Notes: generated by a model not told the origin, from the letters alone. A stretch of DNA of 64,000 bases from Denitrobaculum tricleocarpae (GCF_007004665.1 NZ_ML660054.1:558001-622000), one strand, 5' to 3'. Shown: positions 956 through 14,638, counted from the first letter of the stretch. Translations and numbers: made by a program.

Positions 956-3079
956 TTACCAAACGGCAGTGATGACACTACGAACTGTTGTAAAACCAAC
1001 TACGGAAACTCGACCAAACATACCTGGGTAAGGTAATTGAGTGCTTGATCGTGTAAACCTGCCAAACGCGCCACTTTCTAACATATCTTGCAATGCCGCA
1101 CCCACCGCCGATCCAAATTGCTGATAGTTGGATAAGCTATTAGAGCCGCGACGCGGTTCAAGAGTTGCTCCCTCAATACCATGGTTGATCTTATAATAAT
1201 ACGTGGTGAAACCGCTTGGTGCAGTGTTTTCTTGCTGTGTAATGTTTCCGCTGTAGCGCGCATCTACAGCATCGCTGAACTCAATCGCAACACTCGTAGG
1301 ATCTCTAAAGATACGATCATCCGTGCTCCATGTCAGGTTATGGAAATCGATTATGAAGTCGAGTTCGTTATTCAAATCTGATGTAATCCAGTTCCTAACA
1401 TTGCGACTCGCCTCTAAATCAAAGTCACCCCAATCACGATTTAGGTTCTTATGTGCGAACGTACCAGTGAACTCCGAACCAACTGGATGCCCCAGAAACA
1501 ATCCGGTCGAATTAACCCAGACAACGAATACTTCAAAATTTCGCCTGACGTCAGCCGCCTCGTTGCTCGAGCCAATCAACCAATCCACAAACCCTTTCAC
1601 TGCCCATTTCGCAACCATTTCACCAGAATGAACATTGGCAAACGCAAGTATCCGCAACTTAGCGCCTATCTTAGGGTGTACCAAAACAGAGTCATCTGCA
1701 ATCCTGAGCGCGTGTTGCTTCAATGGGCCCGAGATACGCCCGTTTTCATCCTCAATTGAGGTCAAAGTCGATATCGATCCGTCCGTTTCGGCCCCGCTCG
1801 TAGGCGTCACAAATGGACTGCTCAGCCACTCACCTATGTCGTTAACAACATCTCCATAGTAATAACCCGGCTGATCAGCCACATATATGTCCGGTGTACT
1901 AAAACTAGAATTATTGGAGGCAGACAACGTGCCATTCGCTAGCACGTTATTGTCGAAGAGAGTCCACTCTTCTTTGCTACCTAATACGGGACGCCACCAT
2001 AATTTCGTTTCGGGCGTAAATTTTTGATCAAAATCGAAGTCCGTTTCGGACAATCGGAACTCAATTGAGTTTACGCTGTTAACACCACTGACTAACGCCT
2101 GCACCGTCAGCCAATCATTTCCGGCGTTACGATATGGGAATTTTCGAGGGACCAGAGTTACTGTGGCATCTAAGCCAGAAAGCTGAACCGAACTTGCTCC
2201 TGCATCGAGCGTCGCGCCGTCAAATTCTCCACTGACTCCCACATCAGCAACTGGTGGAACTACCGTTGAGGTCAGCAATTGAGCTGGAACGCTCAAGCTT
2301 GATTGCCCCGAAAGAACGCTCTGACCAGAAGGCGTGGAGTTCGTAACTGATATTGTTTGCCTCAAAGAGGTCAAACGAGTCGAAGTCGACGCTAAGCCAT
2401 AGGTAGGATCTAGCGCTTGATTTACATTTGATAGACTGGCGGTATTTGTGTTGCCGCCTATCACTGAGTTCCAATTGGAGAGGTAAGTTGTAGTTGGCTT
2501 GAGAAGAAAATCGTTGTTGGAGAATATTGCATCAGGTGGCAATCCTAACTCAAACTGAGATACTTCGGATTCGTCTGCAACGCGATCAACCAGAGCAAAC
2601 CTAGCTATTTGTCCATTGATACCTCTATCAAGATGGGCTCGGTTTCCAATACATACATCACCATTAGTGGCGCCTAAGTTAGAGCCGGTTGAACCACCAA
2701 AAATAGCCTGCGAAACACCATTCACGTAAATCTTTGTGTTTAGCACAGAAGGCGCTGAACAGTCCGAACAAGTCCAAACAATTCGATTCCATTGGCCAAC
2801 GGTTAGTACATCACTTGCGGTATACGCTTGACCGGTAACAGCACCAAAGTGAGCGGCGCGAACACTATTGTTTGTACCGCCTTCATCAGATAGCTGAAGA
2901 AGAAAATTTTGGAAGGTATCTTGCCCACTATTTCTGGTGGCACTAAAAAAATCATTGTTGATTTGAAACGCACTACCTGGCAAGAAAAAATCTAGAAGTA
3001 TTGATTTTGCACCAGCGTTCAAGTTTCCAACGTTGCTGTAAACGACGCGAGATGAAGTACCATTAAACTCAAGAGCCAT
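956..3079 (-). CDS. LamG-like lectin + M14 zinc carboxypeptidase protein, probable tail-fibre/adhesin
   Basis: A 707-residue protein. Residues 1-185 look like a concanavalin A/LamG fold (MALEFNGTSSRVVY start; WNRIVW and KIYVNG strands; GQIARFALVDRV end), as often seen in phage tail fibres. A middle beta-rich linker runs to about 430. Residues 440-670 carry M14 carboxypeptidase features: Zn-binding NVHSGE (H near 482, E near 485), an NLNRDW segment (N/R near 545-547), a third Zn ligand in DFHN (H near 579) and a candidate catalytic Glu in ATLEP (near 638). It is the last gene of the leftward phage-type set, 12 bp after the structural gene at 3092. No signal peptide is visible, which fits a virion protein. 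AT-rich relative to its phage neighbours, so probably a late acquisition. Role in degrading or binding a host surface peptide is inference. Confidence 0.7.
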   Translation of the reverse strand: MALEFNGTSSRVVYSNVGNLNAGAKSILLDFFLPGSAFQINNDFFSATRNSGQDTFQNFLLQLSDEGGTNNSVRAAHFGAVTGQAYTASDVLTVGQWNRIVWTCSDCSAPSVLNTKIYVNGVSQAIFGGSTGSNLGATNGDVCIGNRAHLDRGINGQIARFALVDRVADESEVSQFELGLPPDAIFSNNDFLLKPTTTYLSNWNSVIGGNTNTASLSNVNQALDPTYGLASTSTRLTSLRQTISVTNSTPSGQSVLSGQSSLSVPAQLLTSTVVPPVADVGVSGEFDGATLDAGASSVQLSGLDATVTLVPRKFPYRNAGNDWLTVQALVSGVNSVNSIEFRLSETDFDFDQKFTPETKLWWRPVLGSKEEWTLFDNNVLANGTLSASNNSSFSTPDIYVADQPGYYYGDVVNDIGEWLSSPFVTPTSGAETDGSISTLTSIEDENGRISGPLKQHALRIADDSVLVHPKIGAKLRILAFANVHSGEMVAKWAVKGFVDWLIGSSNEAADVRRNFEVFVVWVNSTGLFLGHPVGSEFTGTFAHKNLNRDWGDFDLEASRNVRNWITSDLNNELDFIIDFHNLTWSTDDRIFRDPTSVAIEFSDAVDARYSGNITQQENTAPSGFTTYYYKINHGIEGATLEPRRGSNSLSNYQQFGSAVGAALQDMLESGAFGRFTRSSTQLPYPGMFGRVSVVGFTTVRSVITAVW

Positions 3080-4972: not shown

Positions 4973-5713
4973 TCACTCGAACAGATCGTAATCGCTTCGC
5001 GCCAGTGCCGCGCGCTTACGCCGGATTGAGGGCACCGCGAAGCGCAGGCTCATCAGGCCGTAGCGGGTCGCCGCCATCAGGTCGTCGAACTCCTTCACCA
5101 CCTTGCCGTCCTTGCGGTGATAGAGATTAAACTCGCTGAACCATTCGTTCAGATGGGCAAAAACCTTCAGACGGCCGGTCTGCATGCGCTCCAGCAGGAT
5201 CATCAGTCCCGCCTCGACGCCGTTCGATCCGTCCGGGAACTGCGCGTGCGTCTTCAGCATGGCGAGTCCCTGATCCCGGTAAACTTCGGCCAGCATGCGC
5301 CCGCTGCCCTTGTCGTGCTGCAGGCCGTCGTGGGGCCAGGCCCAGGACAGGCTCCGCCCCCAGGATTTCAGGGCCGCCGCATGGATCACCGGCGTCTCCC
5401 GCTTGGCCTTGTAGGCATGGGTCACGTAAAGACAGTCCGCATCGCGGTCCCAGGCCAGCTTGACCGCGGCTGTGGGGTGATCCCACCCGAAATCCAGCGC
5501 GCCAATGACCGGCCAGTGCGCAGGGATCTCAAAGGGCGGACTGGTTATTGCTTCATCGCTGACCGGAAAGATGCGACCGGAACCCAGGACCGGTATGCCC
5601 TTTGCTCTGGCGTCGCGCTCGTGTGCCGGGTAGCTCCGAATGATCGCCTGGCGCTGATCTTCGTCGTAGTGCTCCGCGTCCCAGATGGTCATGGTGGTGA
5701 CGTGCCGCGACAT
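4973..5713 (-). CDS. Terminase large subunit, C-terminal nuclease part (split gene)
   Basis: A 246-residue ORF whose sequence is the second half of a phage terminase large subunit. The RNase H-like nuclease starts at about residue 68 with ALDFGWDHPTA (D74 a likely metal ligand), and another acidic cluster KEFDDLMAATRYG follows near 210. The N-terminal stretch (MTIWDAEHYDEDQ...YPAHERDARAKGIPVLGSGRIFP) is the usual linker between ATPase and nuclease domains, so the ATG at 5713 is probably not a native start. In-frame codons upstream read RLYSRGEELAP back to a TGA. The ATPase half is the next ORF upstream in another frame. The nuclease cleaves DNA during head filling. Confidence 0.8.
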   Translation of the reverse strand: MSRHVTTMTIWDAEHYDEDQRQAIIRSYPAHERDARAKGIPVLGSGRIFPVSDEAITSPPFEIPAHWPVIGALDFGWDHPTAAVKLAWDRDADCLYVTHAYKAKRETPVIHAAALKSWGRSLSWAWPHDGLQHDKGSGRMLAEVYRDQGLAMLKTHAQFPDGSNGVEAGLMILLERMQTGRLKVFAHLNEWFSEFNLYHRKDGKVVKEFDDLMAATRYGLMSLRFAVPSIRRKRAALARSDYDLFE

Positions 5714-5718
5714 GGGCG

Positions 5719-6402
5719 CTAATTCCTCGCCCCTGGAGTAAAGCCGTCAGCGGGCATTGTGTCGCCGTCCGGCTCGGAGTCCGAAAGGAACAGCCGCACA
5801 ACCTCGGACATGCCCAGCAGGGGCGTAAAGGTGATGATGGTCATGCCGCTGGTCGCGTTGGTCCGGGTCAGGCCTTCGGAGTAAATATCGAGCGGAGGCT
5901 CCTCATCGAACCAGACACCGTCCAGGGTCTCGCCCTGCCACTTCTCCCGGCCCTTTTCATAAGACTTGAACGCCAGGGTCGACGCTCCGCCGCTGCTGTG
6001 CCGAACCACGATGCCATCGACCGTATCCGCACCGCTCCGCGCGGCACTGGTGCTCAGGATAGCGTCCCCGGGGAGCGCCGCCGTGCCCCAGGCGTCCCTG
6101 CGCTGCGGCGGCCCCAGCAGCATGCGCTGCGGATTGTCCCGCGTGGATTCCGCCGTCACGCCCGCCGCCCAAAGACGCACGGGTCGCGCGAAGCGCCGCC
6201 CCCGCCACCAATCCGGATAACGGCCGGTCAGATGCATCGCCCACTCCGACGCACCAGCCAGTGTCTTACCCAACTGATTGCCTGCCATGAAGAGGCGCTC
6301 GCGGTGCGCCGCACCTGCATCGTGAAACCGGCGTTGCTTGTCGTAGGGCCGGTAGCGGCTCAGTTCATTCTTTTCCAGCCGCCTCAGCTTCTCGCGCTTC
6401 AA
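5719..6402 (-). CDS. Terminase large subunit, N-terminal ATPase part (split gene)
   Basis: Contains the packaging ATPase: Walker A-type GNQLGKT (residues 41-47 from a TTG at 6402) and Walker B VWFDEE (about 163-168), preceded by RYRPYDKQRRFHDAG, typical of this family. The frame stays open further upstream to 6606, but that part overlaps the small-subunit gene in another frame and looks non-coding, so a TTG near 6402 is proposed; no strong ribosome site marks it. The ORF ends DGFTPGARN-stop at 5719, exactly where the nuclease half continues in another frame. A -1 slip at GGC-TTT-ACT (about 5734-5742) would join them. Either a frameshift mutation, sequencing error or programmed slip. Confidence 0.75.
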   Translation of the reverse strand: MKREKLRRLEKNELSRYRPYDKQRRFHDAGAAHRERLFMAGNQLGKTLAGASEWAMHLTGRYPDWWRGRRFARPVRLWAAGVTAESTRDNPQRMLLGPPQRRDAWGTAALPGDAILSTSAARSGADTVDGIVVRHSSGGASTLAFKSYEKGREKWQGETLDGVWFDEEPPLDIYSEGLTRTNATSGMTIITFTPLLGMSEVVRLFLSDSEPDGDTMPADGFTPGARN

Positions 6403-6973
6403 CGCGAACCTGGATTCCTTCAAGTGCCGCAATCCGCCGCTCAAGATCCCGTTCGAGTTCGTCGAGGTCTTCGTCGCTGAGGTCATCGAAGCCGCCGCCT
6501 TTCCTATCCCGTTTTTCGCCGAACAAACCGAGTTGCCGTCCGAGCAGTTCCAGTGCTTTGTTGGCGACACTGCCCTGTTGACTGTAGCTGCCCACGGTGC
6601 GCCCACTGCGGTCGCGCAGGGGTTTCAGCCCCAGGGAACGCTCGATGTTTTCCACCAGGCATTCGACGATCCAGTCCTTGTCGACGGCGCGCCCGCCACC
6701 GGAGCGCAGCAGGTCTTCCAGCGCGGCCTCTGGGTTCTCCATCCCTGAACCGGCGTCGGGATCATGGCTCTCAAGCGCATCACTGCTGCCCGCCCTATCG
6801 GCGCGCAGTTCATCGATCCGGGCCAGCAGGTCGGCACGCGTGAGCAGCTGCTGCGCTCGCACCTTGGGATTTTCAGTCCGGTAACCCGCCGCCGTGACCG
6901 CGTCCCGGGGCTGCATGCCCGACGCCACCAGGTCGGCAAAAGCCTCCTGGCGGTTGCTTCTCAATCTCGGCAT
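6365..6973 (-). CDS. Terminase small subunit
   Basis: About 202 residues from an ATG at 6973, which has AAGGAG six bases upstream; the longer frame upstream crosses a repeat and is rejected. The N-terminal helix-turn-helix (RQEAFADLVASGMQPRDAVT, AAGYRTENPKVRAQQLLTR) is the classic DNA-recognition domain of phage terminase small subunits. A middle segment (ALEDLLRSGGGRAVDKDWIV, QGSVANKALELLGRQLGLFG) and an acidic, charged tail follow. It recognises the packaging site and hands DNA to the large subunit. It overlaps the start of the large subunit gene by about 38 bp, as is common. Confidence 0.8.
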   Translation of the reverse strand: MPRLRSNRQEAFADLVASGMQPRDAVTAAGYRTENPKVRAQQLLTRADLLARIDELRADRAGSSDALESHDPDAGSGMENPEAALEDLLRSGGGRAVDKDWIVECLVENIERSLGLKPLRDRSGRTVGSYSQQGSVANKALELLGRQLGLFGEKRDRKGGGFDDLSDEDLDELERDLERRIAALEGIQVRVEAREAEAAGKE

Positions 6974-7324
6974 GAAACTCCTTTTGTATCGCGTGCCGGC
7001 CGCCAAAGCGTGCGCACCGCCCACTACGGTTTTCGCAAGCCCGGAAGCTTGCATTCCACCTGTCATTGGGTATTTGAAAGACTGCTTGGTCTTCTGCTCC
7101 AGCTCCAGAAAGCGAAAAACCTCTCCGACCTGAAGCCCCTGCGTCAGAGCAAAAAAAATCCCGCTCCGGTCTTCACCGTCACGAGATACGGACCCATTGG
7201 CCCGACACAAAAATCGCAAATCAGCTTATTTGCGTCAATAGCTTGGGGACAAGACTTATGCCCCAACAAACAAACCACAGAAGCATAATGCCCCATCTGC
7301 AACGAGCGCCGAATCCTTCTTGTC
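6974..7324. other. Intergenic region between immunity-like pseudogene and terminase genes
   Basis: No convincing ORF. It contains direct repeat copy A (7149-7264) with a run of A residues (T on the minus strand) at 7151-7158. Because all genes here run leftward, this gap is the natural place for the promoter of the terminase operon, but no clear -35/-10 pair could be assigned by eye. Confidence 0.4.
7149..7264 (-). repeat. Imperfect direct repeat copy A (pair with 10809-10924)
   Basis: About 115 bp that aligns along its length with 10809-10924: a poly-A run then ATCCCGC-Y-CCGG, a variable stretch, GGACCYATTGGCCCG, CAAAAATCGCAA, and GGCTGGGGACAAG (GCTTGGGGACAAG here), roughly three quarters identical by eye. 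Both copies lie upstream of leftward phage-type genes whose starts also look alike (GGAGTTT..ATG; MPRLRS and MPRFPV). Either a shared regulatory leader (terminator plus promoter) or a recombination repeat. Confidence 0.6.
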
Positions 7325-7729
7325 TCAAAGTGAAGGTGTCGCGGCGGGCTGCTCCTGGATCAATTCGTAAGCTTTCCGGACGGCACTCACGACGTTCTCC
7401 CACTCAGGCTTTTCGATGTACTCCGAATCGCGCATTTCCTCACTATATTTTTCAAAGAAATCGTCAATGGCACCGATCACTTCGTCTACCGCAAGCATCT
7501 CTTCTTCGTTTTTAAGGATGACGCCAATCCAGCTCTCAGAATTCGTCGCCAAATCGGTGTCGTCATAGAGGAACGTCAGAGGGAATTAGAGATTATCGTA
7601 ATCCGTACCCGGTTGTTGGGCACTTTCGGTCCAGGTCCTGCGCTAAAGCTCATGATTGCTCAACTTATTCAGATAATGAATAAGCGTCTCGCGCATCGGG
7701 GATATCTGCAGTTTATTGCATTCAGTCAT
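7325..7729 (-). pseudogene. Broken SCO4402-family immunity-like gene (two in-frame stops)
   Basis: Reading from ATG 7727-7729 the frame gives MTECNKLQISPMRETLIHYL then NKLSNHEL, a TAG (7643-7645), RRTWTESAQQPGTDYDNL, a TAA (7586-7588), then FPLTFLYDDTDLATNSESWI and on to a normal end QEQPAATPSL. All three pieces are in one frame and align end to end with the intact paralogue at 8110-8535 (MTENTKLKYPNMRDELID...HFLYDDTRLSENSDHYIG...EYIEKPEW). So this is a full-length paralogue silenced by two nonsense codons. The downstream 75 residues could in principle still be made from a TTG (7552). It sits in the immunity-like cluster behind the toxin-like ORF. Confidence 0.75.
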
Positions 7730-7744
7730 ATCAGCCTATCGCAT

Positions 7745-8044
7745 CTACTCCTTTCTCAGGTAAGCCCAGTCTCCAAGCATTTGCCCATCAATTGGGTCAC
7801 TGATCTCCATCGAGACGATTTGCAGGTCCACTTGGTGGTCTGGAAAATACGCAATGACCTCTGTTGCGACGTCATCGCAGTCCTCTTCATCCTCCTCGGA
7901 ATAAGGACCTTCATAAACGAACTTCAGTTGTATTTTCTGCTCGTTCACCGCGCAAGTAACACCACGAATGTTAGGTGTGATCATCCGCAGCAACCCAGCC
8001 TGCAACACGATCAGAAGGCTTACTCTTAGATCATTAAGGCTCAT
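7745..8044 (-). CDS. Small acidic immunity-like protein
   Basis: A 99-residue acidic protein: MSLNDLRVSLLIVLQAGLLR, MITPNIRGVTCAVNEQKIQL, KFVYEGPYSEEDEEDCDDVA, TEVIAYFPDH... ending LGDWAYLRKE. The pattern 'LR..LLG..TPN.R.V......I...F.YEG..SEED.E....V.TEVIA.FP' is one I associate with small proteins encoded beside secreted polymorphic toxins; the association is from memory and unverified. GAGG lies 8 bases upstream of the ATG. It lies between the intact and broken SCO4402-like genes, all leftward, behind the toxin-like ORF at 8786. Most likely an immunity or orphan-immunity protein. Confidence 0.55.
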   Translation of the reverse strand: MSLNDLRVSLLIVLQAGLLRMITPNIRGVTCAVNEQKIQLKFVYEGPYSEEDEEDCDDVATEVIAYFPDHQVDLQIVSMEISDPIDGQMLGDWAYLRKE

Positions 8045-8109
8045 TGTTTAGGCCTCGCTGGTACGATGTGGACGCCGTTTTTCGAAGCATGAAGGATCTG
8101 GCCAAGTGA

Positions 8110-8535
8110 CTAAGGTTTGACGTTCTCCTTGGTCGATGAAGACGCCTCGAGCGGCTGTTCCCGGATCAGCTCACAGGCGGCTTTCGCCGACGCAAGCACC
8201 GACTGCCACTCCGGTTTCTCGATGTATTCACCATCAGTCATTTCCGTATTGTACTTTTGGAAGAAAGCCTCAATCGCATCGACGAGTTTGTCCACTGCGG
8301 CTGTCTCTTCCCGGTTTCTGAGAAAAACGCCTATATAGTGGTCCGAATTTTCCGACAAACGCGTATCGTCGTAGAGAAAGTGCAGGGTCTCATTCATGTC
8401 GTCGAAATCAATACCAGGCGGCAATTCCCCCCTAACCCAAGCTGCCCGCTGATATTCGTGATCACTGAGCGCTTCCAGGCAGTCGATCAACTCGTCGCGC
8501 ATGTTGGGATACTTAAGCTTAGTGTTTTCAGTCAT
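8110..8535 (-). CDS. SCO4402-family protein, probable toxin immunity
   Basis: From ATG 8535 (residue 28 of the longest frame) the product is 141 residues: MTENTKLKYPNMRDELIDCL, EALSDHEYQR, GELPPGIDFDDMNETLHFLY, DDTRLSENSDHYIG... EYIEKPEWQSVLASAKAACE. This is the whole-length pattern of the SCO4402 family (MRDEL...LSD.EYQ....W..G..P.G..YDD....vhFL.DDT.L). The upstream part of the open frame adds a Cys-rich leader unlike the family and is rejected because MTEN aligns with MTEC of the broken paralogue. It is the first complete gene after the toxin-like ORF (8786), the usual position of an immunity gene. Family identity is reasonably clear; neutralising partner is inferred. Confidence 0.65.
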   Translation of the reverse strand: MTENTKLKYPNMRDELIDCLEALSDHEYQRAAWVRGELPPGIDFDDMNETLHFLYDDTRLSENSDHYIGVFLRNREETAAVDKLVDAIEAFFQKYNTEMTDGEYIEKPEWQSVLASAKAACELIREQPLEASSSTKENVKP

Positions 8536-8785
8536 ATAGGTTTTTCCGCTTCTTACTTTCCGGCAGATAAGACAGACCAACCGTGCAGTACATTCGAGGA
8601 TTGAGGCGTAACTCAATGCATGCTGACAGCTTGAGAACGTACCTCTTCATGGTTGTCGTATGACTCAACCGAAACATAAAAGAACAATTAGAGAACAAAT
8701 TTCATTAAAATCACTAAAGTGTCAACGGCCTATTCAGGCATAGGCTGCAGAACCTTGAGTGAAGTCGAAGATCCAGGACATCACC

Positions 8786-9061
8786 TTAAGGTGCATACCA
8801 TGTCTCCCAATTCAGGTACTCGATCAGAGGTATGTGGGCGTCTTCATTGCCTCTCACTCTGCCTTCAATCGGCTGTCCGTCGCGCCCCCTGACGGTGCCA
8901 CCATACCGGACAATCACATGGTCAACTTGCTGTGTCGTGTTCGTATGGTCAGGATCACCTTTATCCACACGCACACCATTTCCGTCATTACTCGGGTCCT
9001 CCCAACGCACCCCTGGCTTCTCTTTTCGACCCGGCTGGGCTGCCTTTTTGTATGGCTTCAC
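8786..9061 (-). CDS. Toxin-like C-terminal domain ORF downstream of virion protein
   Basis: A 91-residue ORF starting at GTG 9061, with AGGA 7 bases upstream. The body reads GVRVDKGDPDHTNTTQQVDH, VIVRYGGTVRGRDGQPIEGR, AHIPLIEYLNWETWYAP. The pattern 'R.D.G.P......Q.DHV.V..GG.V.GRDG.PI.G......AHIPL.E...W..W..P' resembles C-terminal domains labelled polymorphic toxin type 17 (from memory, not verified). It is in the same frame as the 533-codon virion-type gene and separated from it by a single TAG (9065-9067), so it may originally have been the C terminus of that protein. Immunity-like genes follow at once. Whether it is expressed by readthrough, by reinitiation at the GTG, or is dead is open. 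Confidence 0.55.
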   Translation of the reverse strand: MKPYKKAAQPGRKEKPGVRWEDPSNDGNGVRVDKGDPDHTNTTQQVDHVIVRYGGTVRGRDGQPIEGRVRGNEDAHIPLIEYLNWETWYAP

Positions 9062-9064
9062 GCC

Positions 9065-10666
9065 CTATTCCTGCGGGATTTTCGGCACGACGTCCTGCAG
9101 GCCCTGCCAATCCGGATAGAAAGTCCGAGCGTCGATCTCATATCCCGTTGGCCAGGGTTCCCCCCTCTTTCGACTTTCCGCAACCAGCGGCCCGTTCACG
9201 ATGTCGCTTTGATCCGGAAACCCGGGAAGCCGGTCCCCGATCCGGGCCGGCGGAACCAGACCTTCCGGCTGTCCGTTCAGCAAAGTGTGATCCGCCGGCT
9301 CCCCACCGGTGGTGACGGATTGCTCGACCTCGACGCCCTCGCCGAAGCCGCCCGGATCGAACTCTTGTCCGGATTGCGGTTCCAGCGGCGGGCTCAGATA
9401 GCGTCCGCGTTCTTCGGGCGGGATAACCAGGCCGGTCTTAAGGTCGATCAGGATGTCGTTGCGCTGCCAATCCAGGTAGCGGCCGGCCTCATCGCCGCCT
9501 AAGAGTTTCCCGCTCAGATCCCGCGCCAGCCCCTTGGGAACATAGCCGGTTTTTACCACCGCATCGGCGATGCGTTCCTGTGTGACTCTGTCGGCACCTG
9601 CTCGCACGGCATCCCGGAAGGTCGTCTCATAGAAGGCCTCCGCCGCCTCGCGGTTCTGCGGCTTCTCGATATCGAATCCCATGCCGGTGCCAAGGGAGAT
9701 TGCGAGGTTCGAGGTGGCTGTTTCTTGCGCCTGCCGCGCGATCTCGGCCTGCTTCGCCCCGGCGCGCAGAGCCTCGGTCTGAGAGCGCAAGAGCAGGTCT
9801 TCGTCTTCTGCCCGGCGAACGTCCGAAGCGCCGGCGGCGCCCTTGACGATGCTGTGCGACAGTTCGAGAGCCTTCTGCGCGCCCTGTCGCATGCGCTCCT
9901 CTTGTTCCAGTGACGTGACCCGCCTGGCGCTGTCCCGCGCGTCTTCAAGCAATTGCTGACGGCGCTCGTCCGATAGGCTTTCCTGCCAGCGTCCTTGTTC
10001 CAGCTCGGTGATCAGACCGGCCGGATCGCGTGTCATCCGGGCATCCAGCAACTGAACCACGGTGTGACTTCGCCAAGCCGCCAGAGCTTCAGGACGCAGA
10101 CCGAGACCGGCCAGCAGTCCCGTCTCTCCTACTGCCTCATCTCCCAAGAGTTCTTGGAATGCTGCCGCAAACTCCGCCGGATCAGACGCCACGCGCCTGG
10201 ACCAGCTCTCAATCAACTCATGGGTATCCCGCAGATTTTTCCGCAGCCGCTGGCGTGCTTCCCCCTCGAGCAACTTCCGGTCCCAGGTCGCGCGCCGGGC
10301 GTCGATTCCTTCAGTCAATCGATTCCGCGATCCCTGATTATCAAGGCTTCGCGACAACGCCTCGGCATTTGAGTCGAAGATTGAACGATGCCGTTTAACT
10401 CGGGCCTCGCTTTCCTCGTCTGGCGGCGCCTGCGCGTCGCTTTCCATGCGTTGTTTTGCGAGCTTTAGGTCGAACTGCGAAAGCTGCTGTTTGACCTGCC
10501 GGTCCCGCCGCCCTTCGACCGTCTGACCGAGCGCGGTGGCTTCTGCGCCCAGGCCGGCAAGACTGCGCCCGATTTCGGAGCCGAAGCGGGCGGCCTGAGC
10601 CCGGGGCGCGTTGGAAAAGGCAGCGGGCGCAGACGTCCGCTGCGGATGAACCGGAAACCGCGGCAT
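9065..10666 (-). CDS. Coiled-coil phage virion (internal/ejection-type) protein
   Basis: A 533-residue, Arg/Glu/Ala-rich and largely helical protein starting MPRFPVHPQRTSAPAAFSNA, with AGGAG just upstream of the ATG. The short Pro-containing start followed by GSEIGRSLAGLGAEATALGQ and a long run of charged helices (about 45-300) matches podophage-type virion proteins that sit inside or at the tip of the particle and are ejected into the cell (pattern recognition, not a firm family call). The C-terminal 130 residues are Gly/Pro-rich (SPPLEPQSGQEFDPGGFGEG... RKRGEPWPTGYEIDARTFYP) and resemble a linker. The stop is an amber codon, after which the same frame continues into the toxin-like domain. 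Confidence 0.6.
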   Translation of the reverse strand: MPRFPVHPQRTSAPAAFSNAPRAQAARFGSEIGRSLAGLGAEATALGQTVEGRRDRQVKQQLSQFDLKLAKQRMESDAQAPPDEESEARVKRHRSIFDSNAEALSRSLDNQGSRNRLTEGIDARRATWDRKLLEGEARQRLRKNLRDTHELIESWSRRVASDPAEFAAAFQELLGDEAVGETGLLAGLGLRPEALAAWRSHTVVQLLDARMTRDPAGLITELEQGRWQESLSDERRQQLLEDARDSARRVTSLEQEERMRQGAQKALELSHSIVKGAAGASDVRRAEDEDLLLRSQTEALRAGAKQAEIARQAQETATSNLAISLGTGMGFDIEKPQNREAAEAFYETTFRDAVRAGADRVTQERIADAVVKTGYVPKGLARDLSGKLLGGDEAGRYLDWQRNDILIDLKTGLVIPPEERGRYLSPPLEPQSGQEFDPGGFGEGVEVEQSVTTGGEPADHTLLNGQPEGLVPPARIGDRLPGFPDQSDIVNGPLVAESRKRGEPWPTGYEIDARTFYPDWQGLQDVVPKIPQE

Positions 10667-10808: not shown

Positions 10809-10924
10809 GCAAAAAAAAATCCCGCCCCGGCTGATGCCGTTGCGGGTTCAGGACCTATTGGCCCGTCGCAAAAATCGCAAGTTTACTGTTTTAGGTCAAG
10901 AGGCTGGGGACAAGTGTCTGTCCC
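10809..10924 (-). repeat. Imperfect direct repeat copy B (pair with 7149-7264)
   Basis: Aligns with copy A: A-run, ATCCCGCCCCGG, GGACCTATTGGCCCG, CAAAAATCGCAA, GGCTGGGGACAAG. Its right end GGGACAAGTGTCTGTCCC is itself nearly palindromic, a form seen in REP-like elements. The two copies are about 3.66 kb apart and bracket the virion-protein/toxin/immunity block. Confidence 0.6.
10811..10846 (-). terminator. Rho-independent-type terminator upstream of virion-protein gene
   Basis: On the minus strand CCCGC...GCGGG with a nested CGG/CCG stem is followed by a run of nine T residues. It would stop leftward transcription arriving from the RTX side and isolate the phage-type operon, or act as a leader attenuator. 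Confidence 0.5.
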
Positions 10925-11410: not shown

Positions 11411-14400
11411 CTAGTTGCTGGATTGCCAGTTTGCCGCAATCACGTCGGCAACCGATTGCGGCAAGCTGCCGGAGGTAACGCCGCCACCCGTGCCATCCGA
11501 TGGTGTGAAGCTCGCCATCGCATTGACCAGCAGATCAATCTGGGCCTCCATCAGGACAGAGCCGTCACTTGCCTCGATCTTGTCTACCGTGCGGGCCGGG
11601 TCCGTGTACCAGTTCTCAAACACCACCTCGTCCGTCGTGCCCAGAACCGAAACCACCAGATTGTCGCCGCTGTGCTCGAACCAGACATCACCGGCGAGGA
11701 TACTACCGCCGAACAGCAGACGGTCATTCGTTGAGACCGCATCGTCATTGCGAACCAGGTCCTGACCATCCCCAGTACTAAAAACATAGGTGTCGTCGCC
11801 CGCACCGCCGCTCAGCAAATCGTTGGCTGCTCCGCCCACAAGCGAGTCATTTCCGCCACCGCCAGTCAGAGTATCGCTCCCGGCACCGCCCTTGATCAAA
11901 TCAGCACCTGAGCTGCCGGTTATGGTATCCTTGTTGCCGCCACCGTCGATCTCTTCGATGCCGGTGACACTGATGGAACTCAAATCGATTGTATCGGCAA
12001 AGACGGAACCAACGATCCGGTCGTACCCGGCTCCGCCATCAATCGTCTCAATCGAATTGGCAGCGGTTAAGCTGCGGACCGCGATGGTGTTGTCGCCCGC
12101 GGTGCCGAGAATACGGTCGTTGCCTTCGCCGCCATTGAAGGTGTCCGGATTTGTGGAGTTGTTGGTTGCAAGAAAGGTGTCGTCACCACCGGCACCGAAG
12201 AGGCTGTCCCCTCCCGAATTGCCCTTGATGGTATCGGCTCCGGATGTTCCGGTCACGTTTCCGCCACCCGAACCCGTCTCGATCAGCTCGACCCCGACGA
12301 GCGTAACGCCCGACAGGTCCAGATCACCCGTGCCCCAGGATATCAGTGTGTCGAAACCATCACCCCCGACAATCGTCTCGATCGAGTTGGCTGCCGTCAG
12401 GCTGGCAACCCGAAGGATATCGTCGCCTGACGTTCCCAGTATCGTGTCTTGGCCGGCACCGCCCTGTACCACGTTGTATTCAAAAGGTTGAACGTCATTC
12501 CCAAGAATAAGAACGTCGTCGCCGGCACCTCCGTCCAGCGTATCTCTGCCCGGCCCTCCGTCGAGCGTGTCGTTGCCTGCCCCGCCGGAAAGTTCGTCGT
12601 TGCCCTTGGCACCGGTCACCGTATCGTTCCCGAAACCGCCGCTTAACGTATCGTTGCCCGGCGTACCGACCAGTATCTGATCGCCAATATAAATGTCCTG
12701 ATCCTTGAACCGCAGGATCTCGACGTCCGTCAACGTATCTTCGCCGTCGTTTCCGTCCAGAACCACGTCATTGTCGGTGACCGTAATCACACCGGTCACC
12801 TGATCGACGCTCACCGTATAGTCCGCGTAGTTCCCGCTATAGACCGCGGTGTCCACACCATCTCCGCCGTCAATCAAATCGTCGGAACCCTGACCTTCCA
12901 GCAGATCGTCTCCGCCGCCGCCGGACAGGGTATCGTACCCGGTCCCGCCCGTGATCACGTCGTTGCCGGGACCGCCGACGGACGAGCTGTTCGCATGAAA
13001 AACCTTACTGTAAACACCGGTGCCGCTACCGTCTTGCCCATCTGATACCCAAGTCGCCACATAGCCGCCAGAAGCCAAGGCAGCAAGTTCAATGTAATCC
13101 TGAGAGCCGACTGTGTAATCGTTTATACGGACTTCTCCGCCAACAGATTGTCTGTTGCTGTCGAATCGGTGCGTATAAACCCCGACGCCATTGCCATCGT
13201 TTTTTCTGTAAGCGACGACAAATCCGCCATCTGCCAGACCAACGACATCATAGGTGAATATATTGACGTGCTCCCCGGTCAGCGTGACGCTGACGATCGG
13301 GAAACGAGTACCGTCCGCGCTGTAGACGTAGGCTTTCACTTTTTTTGTGTTGTTAGAGCTCTTGGTACGCGTAACCGCCACAACAAAACCGCCGTCTTTG
13401 AGGGCAGCTACCGAACCATGAGAATAGGTTCTGCTCGCCGTGCCAGCTTCAATGGTTTGATCGTTTGCACCTACAACTGGCGCACCGTCAGAATCGAAGC
13501 GTGTGTAGAAGAGCCCGCGGTGTCCTGAATTGTTCGACCGATAGGTTATGATGCTATCGCCGTTCTCAAGCACGGCAACACCCTCGACCGCTTGCTGGTT
13601 ACTATTGGGGCCGTTAACACGACTGAAAGACCCTTGCACCTCATCTCCATTGGCATCAAAGACCTTTTTGAAGACTTCATGCAGATTCTTTTCGCCTTCC
13701 CCCTCATGCGTCCAAGAAACAACGAAACCACCATCATCAGTCGTATCGATGTGTGAATAGCGGCGATGGTTGTTGCCCACATCGCTAACAAGTTGCTCCG
13801 GCTGGCCGATAAGCGTCGTTGGATCTGATGCATCTGGCGTAAAGCGTCGCGCATGGACTGTATAGTGTGTGCCAACTTGTGCGAAAGACGCATAGGAAAC
13901 GACAAACCCGCCATCCTGAAACGCCGCCACACGAGGCGCAAACTGCGTATTGGCTGTATGGCTGTTGATCCTGAACTCGCCACCGACCTTTGCCCCTTGC
14001 GCATCGTAACGCTGCGCATAGACGTCAAAGCCGGTGCCGGTTCCTTTGTCTGTCGTCCAGACAGCGACATAACCTCCGTCAGGAAGAGCAGCAACGTCAA
14101 TGCCGGTTTGGTCTCCCGTCGTAAATTCATCGTTCACCAATGCTTCGGCACTGCCTGTGAAAACCGGAATTGCATCGTCACGCACATCAAGTGTAACCGT
14201 CGCGGTTGAGGTCAGGCCTGTGTCGTTGTCCGTAATCCGCCAGACAAAGGTATCTGCGCCGGCGTAGTCCGCATTGGCCTGGTAGCTATAGGTTCCGTCC
14301 GGATTGACCGTGACGGCACCGTTTGTCGCGTCTGTTTCGAGACTGTAAGTGACGTTCGCGCCATCGCCGAATTGAGCACCGAGCGACCAGGACACAAGAC

Positions 14401-14638
14401 CGTCGTCTCCAACGTCCGCGACAGCGTCAAGGGCGACAGGCGGCCCCGCCAGATTACTTGAGGCTGCCGGTGCTGCGCTGGCCTGTTCCGTATGGACTGC
14501 GTCACCACTGGAAACGTCTTCGGAAACTCCTTGCATGCCTGAAGCGTGCTGTTCAATCGAATGGGTAACATCGCTTCTGGACGCCGCATCGACTGCAATT
14601 GAGCTTTGGCTGTCGTGTTCTTCCCGCGTATTCATCAT
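11411..14638 (-). CDS. RTX protein with cadherin-like and propeller repeats, type I secretion substrate
   Basis: A 1075-residue acidic protein with no Sec signal. Residues 65-150 form a bacterial cadherin/VCBS-like domain (TYSLETDATNGAVTVNPDGT, YSYQANADYAGADTFVWRIT). Residues 155-560 carry about seven repeats of the type 'ALPDGGYVAVWTT...VYAQRYDAQGAKVGGEFRIN', consistent with a beta-propeller. Residues 565-960 hold many GGXGXDXLX calcium-binding RTX nonapeptides in several blocks separated by 'SLTAANSIETI' segments. A C-terminal HCBP-related segment (DRLLFGG...VVSVLGTTDEVVFENW) and a final AMASFTPSDG...LPQSVADVIAANWQSS resemble the usual type I secretion signal. No ABC exporter or membrane-fusion gene is adjacent. 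Probably a surface or secreted adhesin; substrate unknown. Confidence 0.85.
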   Translation of the reverse strand: MMNTREEHDSQSSIAVDAASRSDVTHSIEQHASGMQGVSEDVSSGDAVHTEQASAAPAASSNLAGPPVALDAVADVGDDGLVSWSLGAQFGDGANVTYSLETDATNGAVTVNPDGTYSYQANADYAGADTFVWRITDNDTGLTSTATVTLDVRDDAIPVFTGSAEALVNDEFTTGDQTGIDVAALPDGGYVAVWTTDKGTGTGFDVYAQRYDAQGAKVGGEFRINSHTANTQFAPRVAAFQDGGFVVSYASFAQVGTHYTVHARRFTPDASDPTTLIGQPEQLVSDVGNNHRRYSHIDTTDDGGFVVSWTHEGEGEKNLHEVFKKVFDANGDEVQGSFSRVNGPNSNQQAVEGVAVLENGDSIITYRSNNSGHRGLFYTRFDSDGAPVVGANDQTIEAGTASRTYSHGSVAALKDGGFVVAVTRTKSSNNTKKVKAYVYSADGTRFPIVSVTLTGEHVNIFTYDVVGLADGGFVVAYRKNDGNGVGVYTHRFDSNRQSVGGEVRINDYTVGSQDYIELAALASGGYVATWVSDGQDGSGTGVYSKVFHANSSSVGGPGNDVITGGTGYDTLSGGGGDDLLEGQGSDDLIDGGDGVDTAVYSGNYADYTVSVDQVTGVITVTDNDVVLDGNDGEDTLTDVEILRFKDQDIYIGDQILVGTPGNDTLSGGFGNDTVTGAKGNDELSGGAGNDTLDGGPGRDTLDGGAGDDVLILGNDVQPFEYNVVQGGAGQDTILGTSGDDILRVASLTAANSIETIVGGDGFDTLISWGTGDLDLSGVTLVGVELIETGSGGGNVTGTSGADTIKGNSGGDSLFGAGGDDTFLATNNSTNPDTFNGGEGNDRILGTAGDNTIAVRSLTAANSIETIDGGAGYDRIVGSVFADTIDLSSISVTGIEEIDGGGNKDTITGSSGADLIKGGAGSDTLTGGGGNDSLVGGAANDLLSGGAGDDTYVFSTGDGQDLVRNDDAVSTNDRLLFGGSILAGDVWFEHSGDNLVVSVLGTTDEVVFENWYTDPARTVDKIEASDGSVLMEAQIDLLVNAMASFTPSDGTGGGVTSGSLPQSVADVIAANWQSSN

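Follow-up and report, generated by a model that had tools for sequence, protein, structure and literature searches.

A decayed toxin cassette on a putative ejection protein in a podovirus-like locus of Denitrobaculum tricleocarpae

The 64,000-nucleotide stretch of DNA analysed here (the window, G000:C3:558001-622000, G000 being the genome of Denitrobaculum tricleocarpae) contains a gene of 533 codons, called here the carrier gene, which ends at an amber codon. Behind this codon the same frame continues into a toxin-type domain, and a gene of the DUF7945/SCO4402 family follows (Table 1). The locus is probably a broken member of a polymorphic toxin system borne on the ejection protein of a domesticated podovirus-like particle, delivery being the inferred part of this reading. 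The original prediction, that a phage particle protein bears a polymorphic toxin/immunity module, is supported by an intact fusion in a relative, by other toxins on the same N-terminus, by toxin and SCO4402 genes that adjoin each other in other carriers and by the likeness of the carrier to ejection proteins. A broader proposal, held only tentatively, is that Pelagibius-type marine Alphaproteobacteria have domesticated a podovirus into a toxin-injecting particle, with the ejection-tunnel protein serving as a multi-copy carrier of exchangeable toxins. The relatives compared are Pelagibius sp. Alg239-R121 (G001) and two uncultured Kiloniellaceae (G002 and G003).

Carrier arrays, toxin domain and immunity gene

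Four genomes, all of one genus, contain the N-terminal 397 residues of the carrier in arrays of several copies. D. tricleocarpae has two more copies, both intact, upstream of the window (C3:535-545k; 953 and 976 aa), Pelagibius sp. has two and G003 three, and G002 contains several longer copies together with fragments. Carriers that are 85-90% identical at the N-terminus display no detectable C-terminal similarity past a junction of the type PGFPxQ...PDQSD. Other, known toxins are found on the same N-terminus, among them Colicin-DNase/WHH (G002, G003) and Ntox44 (G003); a SUKH-1 protein is encoded behind the WHH copy in G003, and CPCC proteins occur within the arrays. A constant N-terminal carrier with variable C-terminal toxins was thus found, and at the sequence level the array is of polymorphic-toxin architecture, with toxicity and neutralisation as its predicted properties.

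In Pelagibius sp. the domain that lies behind the amber codon in the window forms the C-terminus of a single 915-aa open reading frame (ORF), followed by a DUF7945 gene, so that the intact fusion sought among homologs does exist. The window domain is 70% identical to this C-terminus and keeps all 21 residues that are invariant in the toxin family, and therefore the toxin-type domain proposed behind the stop is more than a chance reading. Between the two sequences dN is 0.22 and dS saturated, which speaks for past selection and is uninformative on the time since the stop arose. No match to the domain was obtained in Pfam, PHROGs or NCBIfam, and searches against PDB sequences gave weak matches only, none of them toxins, with no solved relative. 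The domain with the DHV, GRDG and HIP motifs appears to represent an unassigned toxin family.

Relatives of this domain are carried by proteins of several types. They were detected in regions resembling contact-dependent inhibition (CDI) loci of Janthinobacterium, Ochrobactrum and Cronobacter, in two Streptomyces RHS proteins and in a further proteobacterium (G528), in each case with a DUF7945 protein behind. Matches in three other genomes (G015, G016 and G020) are no more than short pieces, and no carrier could be recognised with them. In an IMG/VR phage contig (L097, 3835-5734) the toxin-DUF7945 pair stands behind a partial, repeated portal C-terminus, an arrangement that suggests portal-linked toxin cassettes in another phage group. 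Altogether DUF7945 follows the toxin in the window, in Pelagibius sp., in G002 and in seven other, independent loci, as immunity genes do in polymorphic toxin systems. Since this order is kept wherever the whole neighbourhood is available (CDI-like, RHS, phage portal-type locus and the window), DUF7945/SCO4402 is likely the immunity protein of the toxin, a function that we propose for the family. The SCO4402-type assignment of the 141-aa product directly behind the toxin was correct, and the broken paralogue further downstream is also real, with two in-frame stops in its N-terminal half (to ~7729). The 99-aa ORF between them had been called immunity-like; this is unsupported, as it matches no family and the other arrays contain no relative of it.

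In profile, modelled fold and gene context the carrier is similar to podoviral internal virion (ejection) proteins. A profile built from ten copies matches a 1241-aa protein of a podoviral prophage of the same family (G006; hidden Markov model E 4e-12; hhalign 94.7%, E 5.6e-8), for which matches to phage transglycosylase/internal virion proteins were obtained in turn. Compared directly, the carrier could not be matched convincingly to large virion proteins of BcepC6B, MW202898 or the G047 prophage; the G006 protein alone matched. Close relatives of the carrier were found neither among known phages nor in IMG/VR. The AlphaFold model of the Pelagibius sp. carrier (mean predicted local distance difference test score, pLDDT, 80.8) resembles viral models in BFVD with E down to 8e-11, and the first fifty matches include 10 named internal virion protein and 4 named transglycosylase, lysozyme or cell-wall hydrolase. 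The top PDB fold match is the periplasmic tunnel of the T7 ejectosome (E 0.048, probability 0.87), which is taken as supportive only because the TM-scores are low. Related phages and prophages encode large virion proteins in the interval from the small internal virion proteins to the tail fibre. In the present locus that interval, beside the fibre gene, is vacant, and apart from the carriers no such proteins were found. The carrier gene adjoins portal and terminase genes, as MuF toxin genes do, and a MuF identity was considered for this protein; Pfam scans of the window carrier and of ten further carriers, with matches admitted up to E 1, showed no MuF domain.

The window copy and its amber codon

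The 533-residue protein ending at TAG had been placed correctly, and the frame is indeed open past the stop for 92 codons, comprising one glycine and the 91-aa ORF that starts with GTG at 9061 and ends at 8786. The stop lies ~45 residues past the junction, within the toxin cassette. When compared with Pelagibius sp., the window carrier also lacks residues ~400-692, a middle domain of ~290 residues which has a hydrophobic helix in the Pelagibius sp. protein and in some other carrier copies. The N-terminus of the window carrier has a ratio of nonsynonymous to synonymous substitution rates (dN/dS) of 0.21-0.33, slightly above that of the other copies among themselves (0.15-0.25). In G002 the toxin domain is split off by a frameshift and an insertion sequence is present at the locus, while DUF7945 still follows. 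G003 has lost the cassette except for a DUF7945 scrap beside a leader element described below.

Of the three readings offered for the amber codon, a disabling mutation is the best supported, because the carrier is also without ~290 residues and because the equivalent cassette is broken otherwise in G002 and nearly all lost in G003; evidence for regulated readthrough was not found. The alternative is that the amber is functional, the 91-aa toxin being made separately by re-initiation at GTG or as a readthrough fusion. A single codon separates the GTG from the stop, AGGA stands seven bases ahead of the GTG, and the toxin frame is open with its invariant residues retained, all of which would suit this view. 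We regard it as quite unlikely, considering that the intact relative makes a single polypeptide, that a free toxin would have no delivery part and that the carrier is without its middle domain as well. The different breaks in the homologous cassettes indicate that loss at this site is a pattern, and no tRNA gene, and so no suppressor, was found in the window, to which that scan was confined. The window copy is decayed, with an internal deletion of ~290 aa in addition to the amber. As the middle domain is lost and the stop falls inside the toxin cassette, this copy probably no longer delivers anything, and its immunity gene persists.

The particle locus and a possible route of delivery

All four genomes contain genes for a portal (PF12236), a scaffold-like protein, a capsid (phrog_3437), terminase, tail proteins (phrog_394, phrog_376), small internal virion proteins (phrog_308, phrog_418) and a T7-type fibre N-terminus. 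The locus lies near GlmU/GlmS and an aminotransferase gene in the four genomes, with host genes between the blocks, and the carrier array directly follows the portal and scaffold genes. The terminase block of G003 is on another contig, so its linkage to the locus is seen in the other genomes only. The capsid protein (gene at G000:C3:525031-525873) is 97-99% identical across the four species, above the host proteins compared. Its dN/dS is 0.01-0.03, and values of 0.03-0.06 were obtained for both the portal and the large tail protein and 0.08-0.16 for the terminase halves, against 0.02-0.09 and 0.04-0.08 for the host genes BCAT and GlmU; these ratios were obtained by NG86 and are rough, as dS is often saturated. 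Structural and packaging genes in general range from 0.01 to 0.24, save for a 123-aa protein (0.23-0.39) and a fast-evolving laminin-G-like protein, ~24% identical between D. tricleocarpae and Pelagibius sp. or G002. The locus is thus inherited vertically under purifying selection, as are gene transfer agents and domesticated particles. In 31 ORFs between and around the blocks, genes for integrase, lysis or replication were not recognised (PHROGs; Pfam, among the matches listed, 25/34 families), and the lack of recognised replication and integration genes in these ORFs is a further trait of a domesticated particle.

All four genomes have the large terminase subunit divided into two ORFs at one common position (4973-6606 in the window, and equivalents). 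It is one gene in a Rhizobium phage relative, and purifying selection acts on both of the split halves. In D. tricleocarpae a second prophage, of P22-portal type (C3 about 17.7-19k), has its large terminase subunit divided at this position too.

The split terminase, the insertion sequence in G002 and the breakage of the carrier in the window, at the corresponding sites of G002 and G003 and in several other G002 copies would also be expected of an ordinary decaying prophage remnant, in which podovirus leftovers accompany a toxin/immunity locus of benefit to phage or lysogen, as in MuF phages, and no domesticated particle exists. This explanation appears unlikely in view of the shared position of the locus in four genomes with host genes between its blocks, the lack of recognised integrase, lysis and replication genes, and the dN/dS of 0.01-0.1 at near-saturated dS for capsid, portal and most tail genes, which is like or below that of host genes.

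A leader element of 110 bp precedes both the carrier gene and the gene for the small terminase subunit. The whole 6.4-Mb D. tricleocarpae genome has three copies, all at this locus, and the two in the window flank the cassette that is lost in G003. Changes on both sides of the hairpin occur in five pairs, mostly in weak positions, and the structure therefore rests mainly on its hairpin-plus-T-run form. No Rfam family fits the element. It links the carrier with the packaging genes, and antitermination control is a possible function.

The carrier might also act outside any particle, as part of an intracellular or secreted system that merely sits among old phage genes. It belongs to no annotated virion family and the terminase is split, both of which would fit such a system. 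We consider it very unlikely, since the carrier has profile and fold similarity to podoviral internal virion proteins, its array comes directly after portal and scaffold, and it has its leader in common with the terminase gene.

Several points weigh against a toxin-bearing ejection protein of a domesticated particle. Long helical proteins are prone to loose Foldseek matches, and the PDB match of the carrier is weak, with low TM-scores. No Pfam or PHROG family fits the carrier, and its close copies are confined to four genomes of one genus. The toxin is without a known catalytic family, and its structure model is poor (pLDDT 54) and unsuited to fold comparison. The split in the large terminase subunit could mean that the particle is disabled, and no lysis gene was recognised among the 31 nearby ORFs.

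If the locus does derive from such a particle, intact carriers would be packed in the head together with the other ejection proteins. The particle would dock on a neighbouring cell, whereupon the ejection proteins would travel down the tail and form an assembly that spans the envelope of that cell, and the C-terminal toxin would be brought into the target along this route. Kin cells would survive through matching immunity proteins, here DUF7945/SCO4402. Ejection proteins of T7 are described as leaving the head via the tail and assembling across the envelope (PMC8954989). The existence of intact relatives of the window copy suggests that toxin delivery may make use of virus-like particles.

Comparison with known systems and accompanying features

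Tailocins and gene transfer agents are phage-derived particles already known, and a podovirus-derived toxin-array locus, if real, would be a further domesticated phage weapon beside them. The closest parallel is offered by the MuF polymorphic toxins of temperate phages (Jamet et al., 2017, PMC5576092; Bxa/Apk2, PMC11699363), which also have a C-terminal toxin on a virion head protein, adjacent terminase and portal genes and neighbouring immunity genes. They differ in that the carrier here is ejection-tunnel-like and multi-copy, and in that MuF toxins sit in ordinary prophages whereas the present carrier locus is vertically inherited under purifying selection. With the T7-type ejection proteins gp14/gp15/gp16 (PMC8954989) the locus shares a long helical carrier whose fold resembles that of the T7 periplasmic tunnel protein, and a structural module that also encodes small internal virion proteins (phrog_308, phrog_418); it is set apart by the toxins at the C-termini of the carriers and by the immunity genes. 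CDI (CdiA-CT) and RHS toxins have the same toxin-DUF7945 pair at the C-terminus and the same modular swapping past a conserved junction, but a different carrier and expected delivery route. Like the gene transfer agents of Alphaproteobacteria, the locus consists of phage structural genes that occupy a single chromosomal position in related species, evolve under purifying selection and are accompanied by no recognised replication genes. Unlike them, it has a podovirus-like gene set (Head-tail_con portal, T7-type fibre N-terminus), toxin arrays and a split terminase.

In the open-licence literature searched, "ejectosome" and "polymorphic toxin" were not found together, nor was there a match for podovirus-like gene transfer agents, domesticated phages or ejectosomes with polymorphic toxins. 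Phage-borne polymorphic toxins on MuF are already known; that literature yielded no case of an ejection protein as the carrier in a podovirus-like locus maintained by vertical descent. The biological role of MuF toxins was stated to be unknown in the 2024 Bxa study (PMC11699363). A toxin on an ejection-tunnel-like protein offers a concrete and testable route for phage-borne polymorphic toxins, namely injection with the ejectosome.

Table 1. Features of the toxin cassette, leader elements and packaging block (window coordinates unless another location is given)
Feature	Position	Strand	Remarks
707-aa protein, laminin-G-like domain	956..3079	-	End of packaging block; fast-evolving
69-aa phage protein	4738..4947	-	phrog_831
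Terminase large subunit, C-terminal nuclease part	4973..5713	-	Own ORF; dN/dS 0.08-0.09
Terminase large subunit, N-terminal ATPase part	5719..6606	-	Own ORF; dN/dS 0.11-0.16
Terminase small subunit (TerS)	6365..6973	-	dN/dS about 0.2
Leader element upstream of TerS	7151..7253	-	74% identical to 10812-10914
Second DUF7945/SCO4402 gene, broken	7325..7729	-	Open part 7325-7552, Pfam E 6e-15
99-aa ORF	7745..8044	-	No family or relative found
DUF7945/SCO4402-family protein, 141 aa	8110..8535	-	Pfam E 8.7e-44, NCBIfam E 1.4e-39; predicted cognate immunity
Toxin-type domain, 91-aa ORF from GTG	8786..9061	-	Family with DHV / GRDG / HIP motifs
Amber stop (TAG) in toxin cassette	9065..9067	-	Sense codon there in intact relative
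Carrier gene, 533 codons	9065..10666	-	Ejection-protein-like N-terminal domain (residues 1-397) joined directly to pre-toxin region
Junction PGFPDQSD, carrier end	9203..9226	-	Conserved; toxin cassettes diverge beyond
Leader element upstream of carrier	10812..10914	-	TTGAC promoter-like box, GGGCCAATAGGTCC box, intrinsic-terminator-like hairpin and T run
Third leader copy, before class IV aminotransferase gene	G000:C3:532582-532693		

The 707-aa laminin-G-like protein at the end of the packaging block might be a tail or receptor-binding protein. The region from the terminase block to the portal block (G000:C3:551-557k) contains two near-alike genes for 497-aa asparagine-synthase-like proteins (L032, 1575-3068 and 5600-7093), each with a partner of ~610-640 aa, and related genes occupy the same site in the other three genomes. 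Directly upstream of the carrier cassette, positions 11411-14638 of the window encode a 1075-aa protein with RTX (hemolysin-type calcium-binding) repeats.

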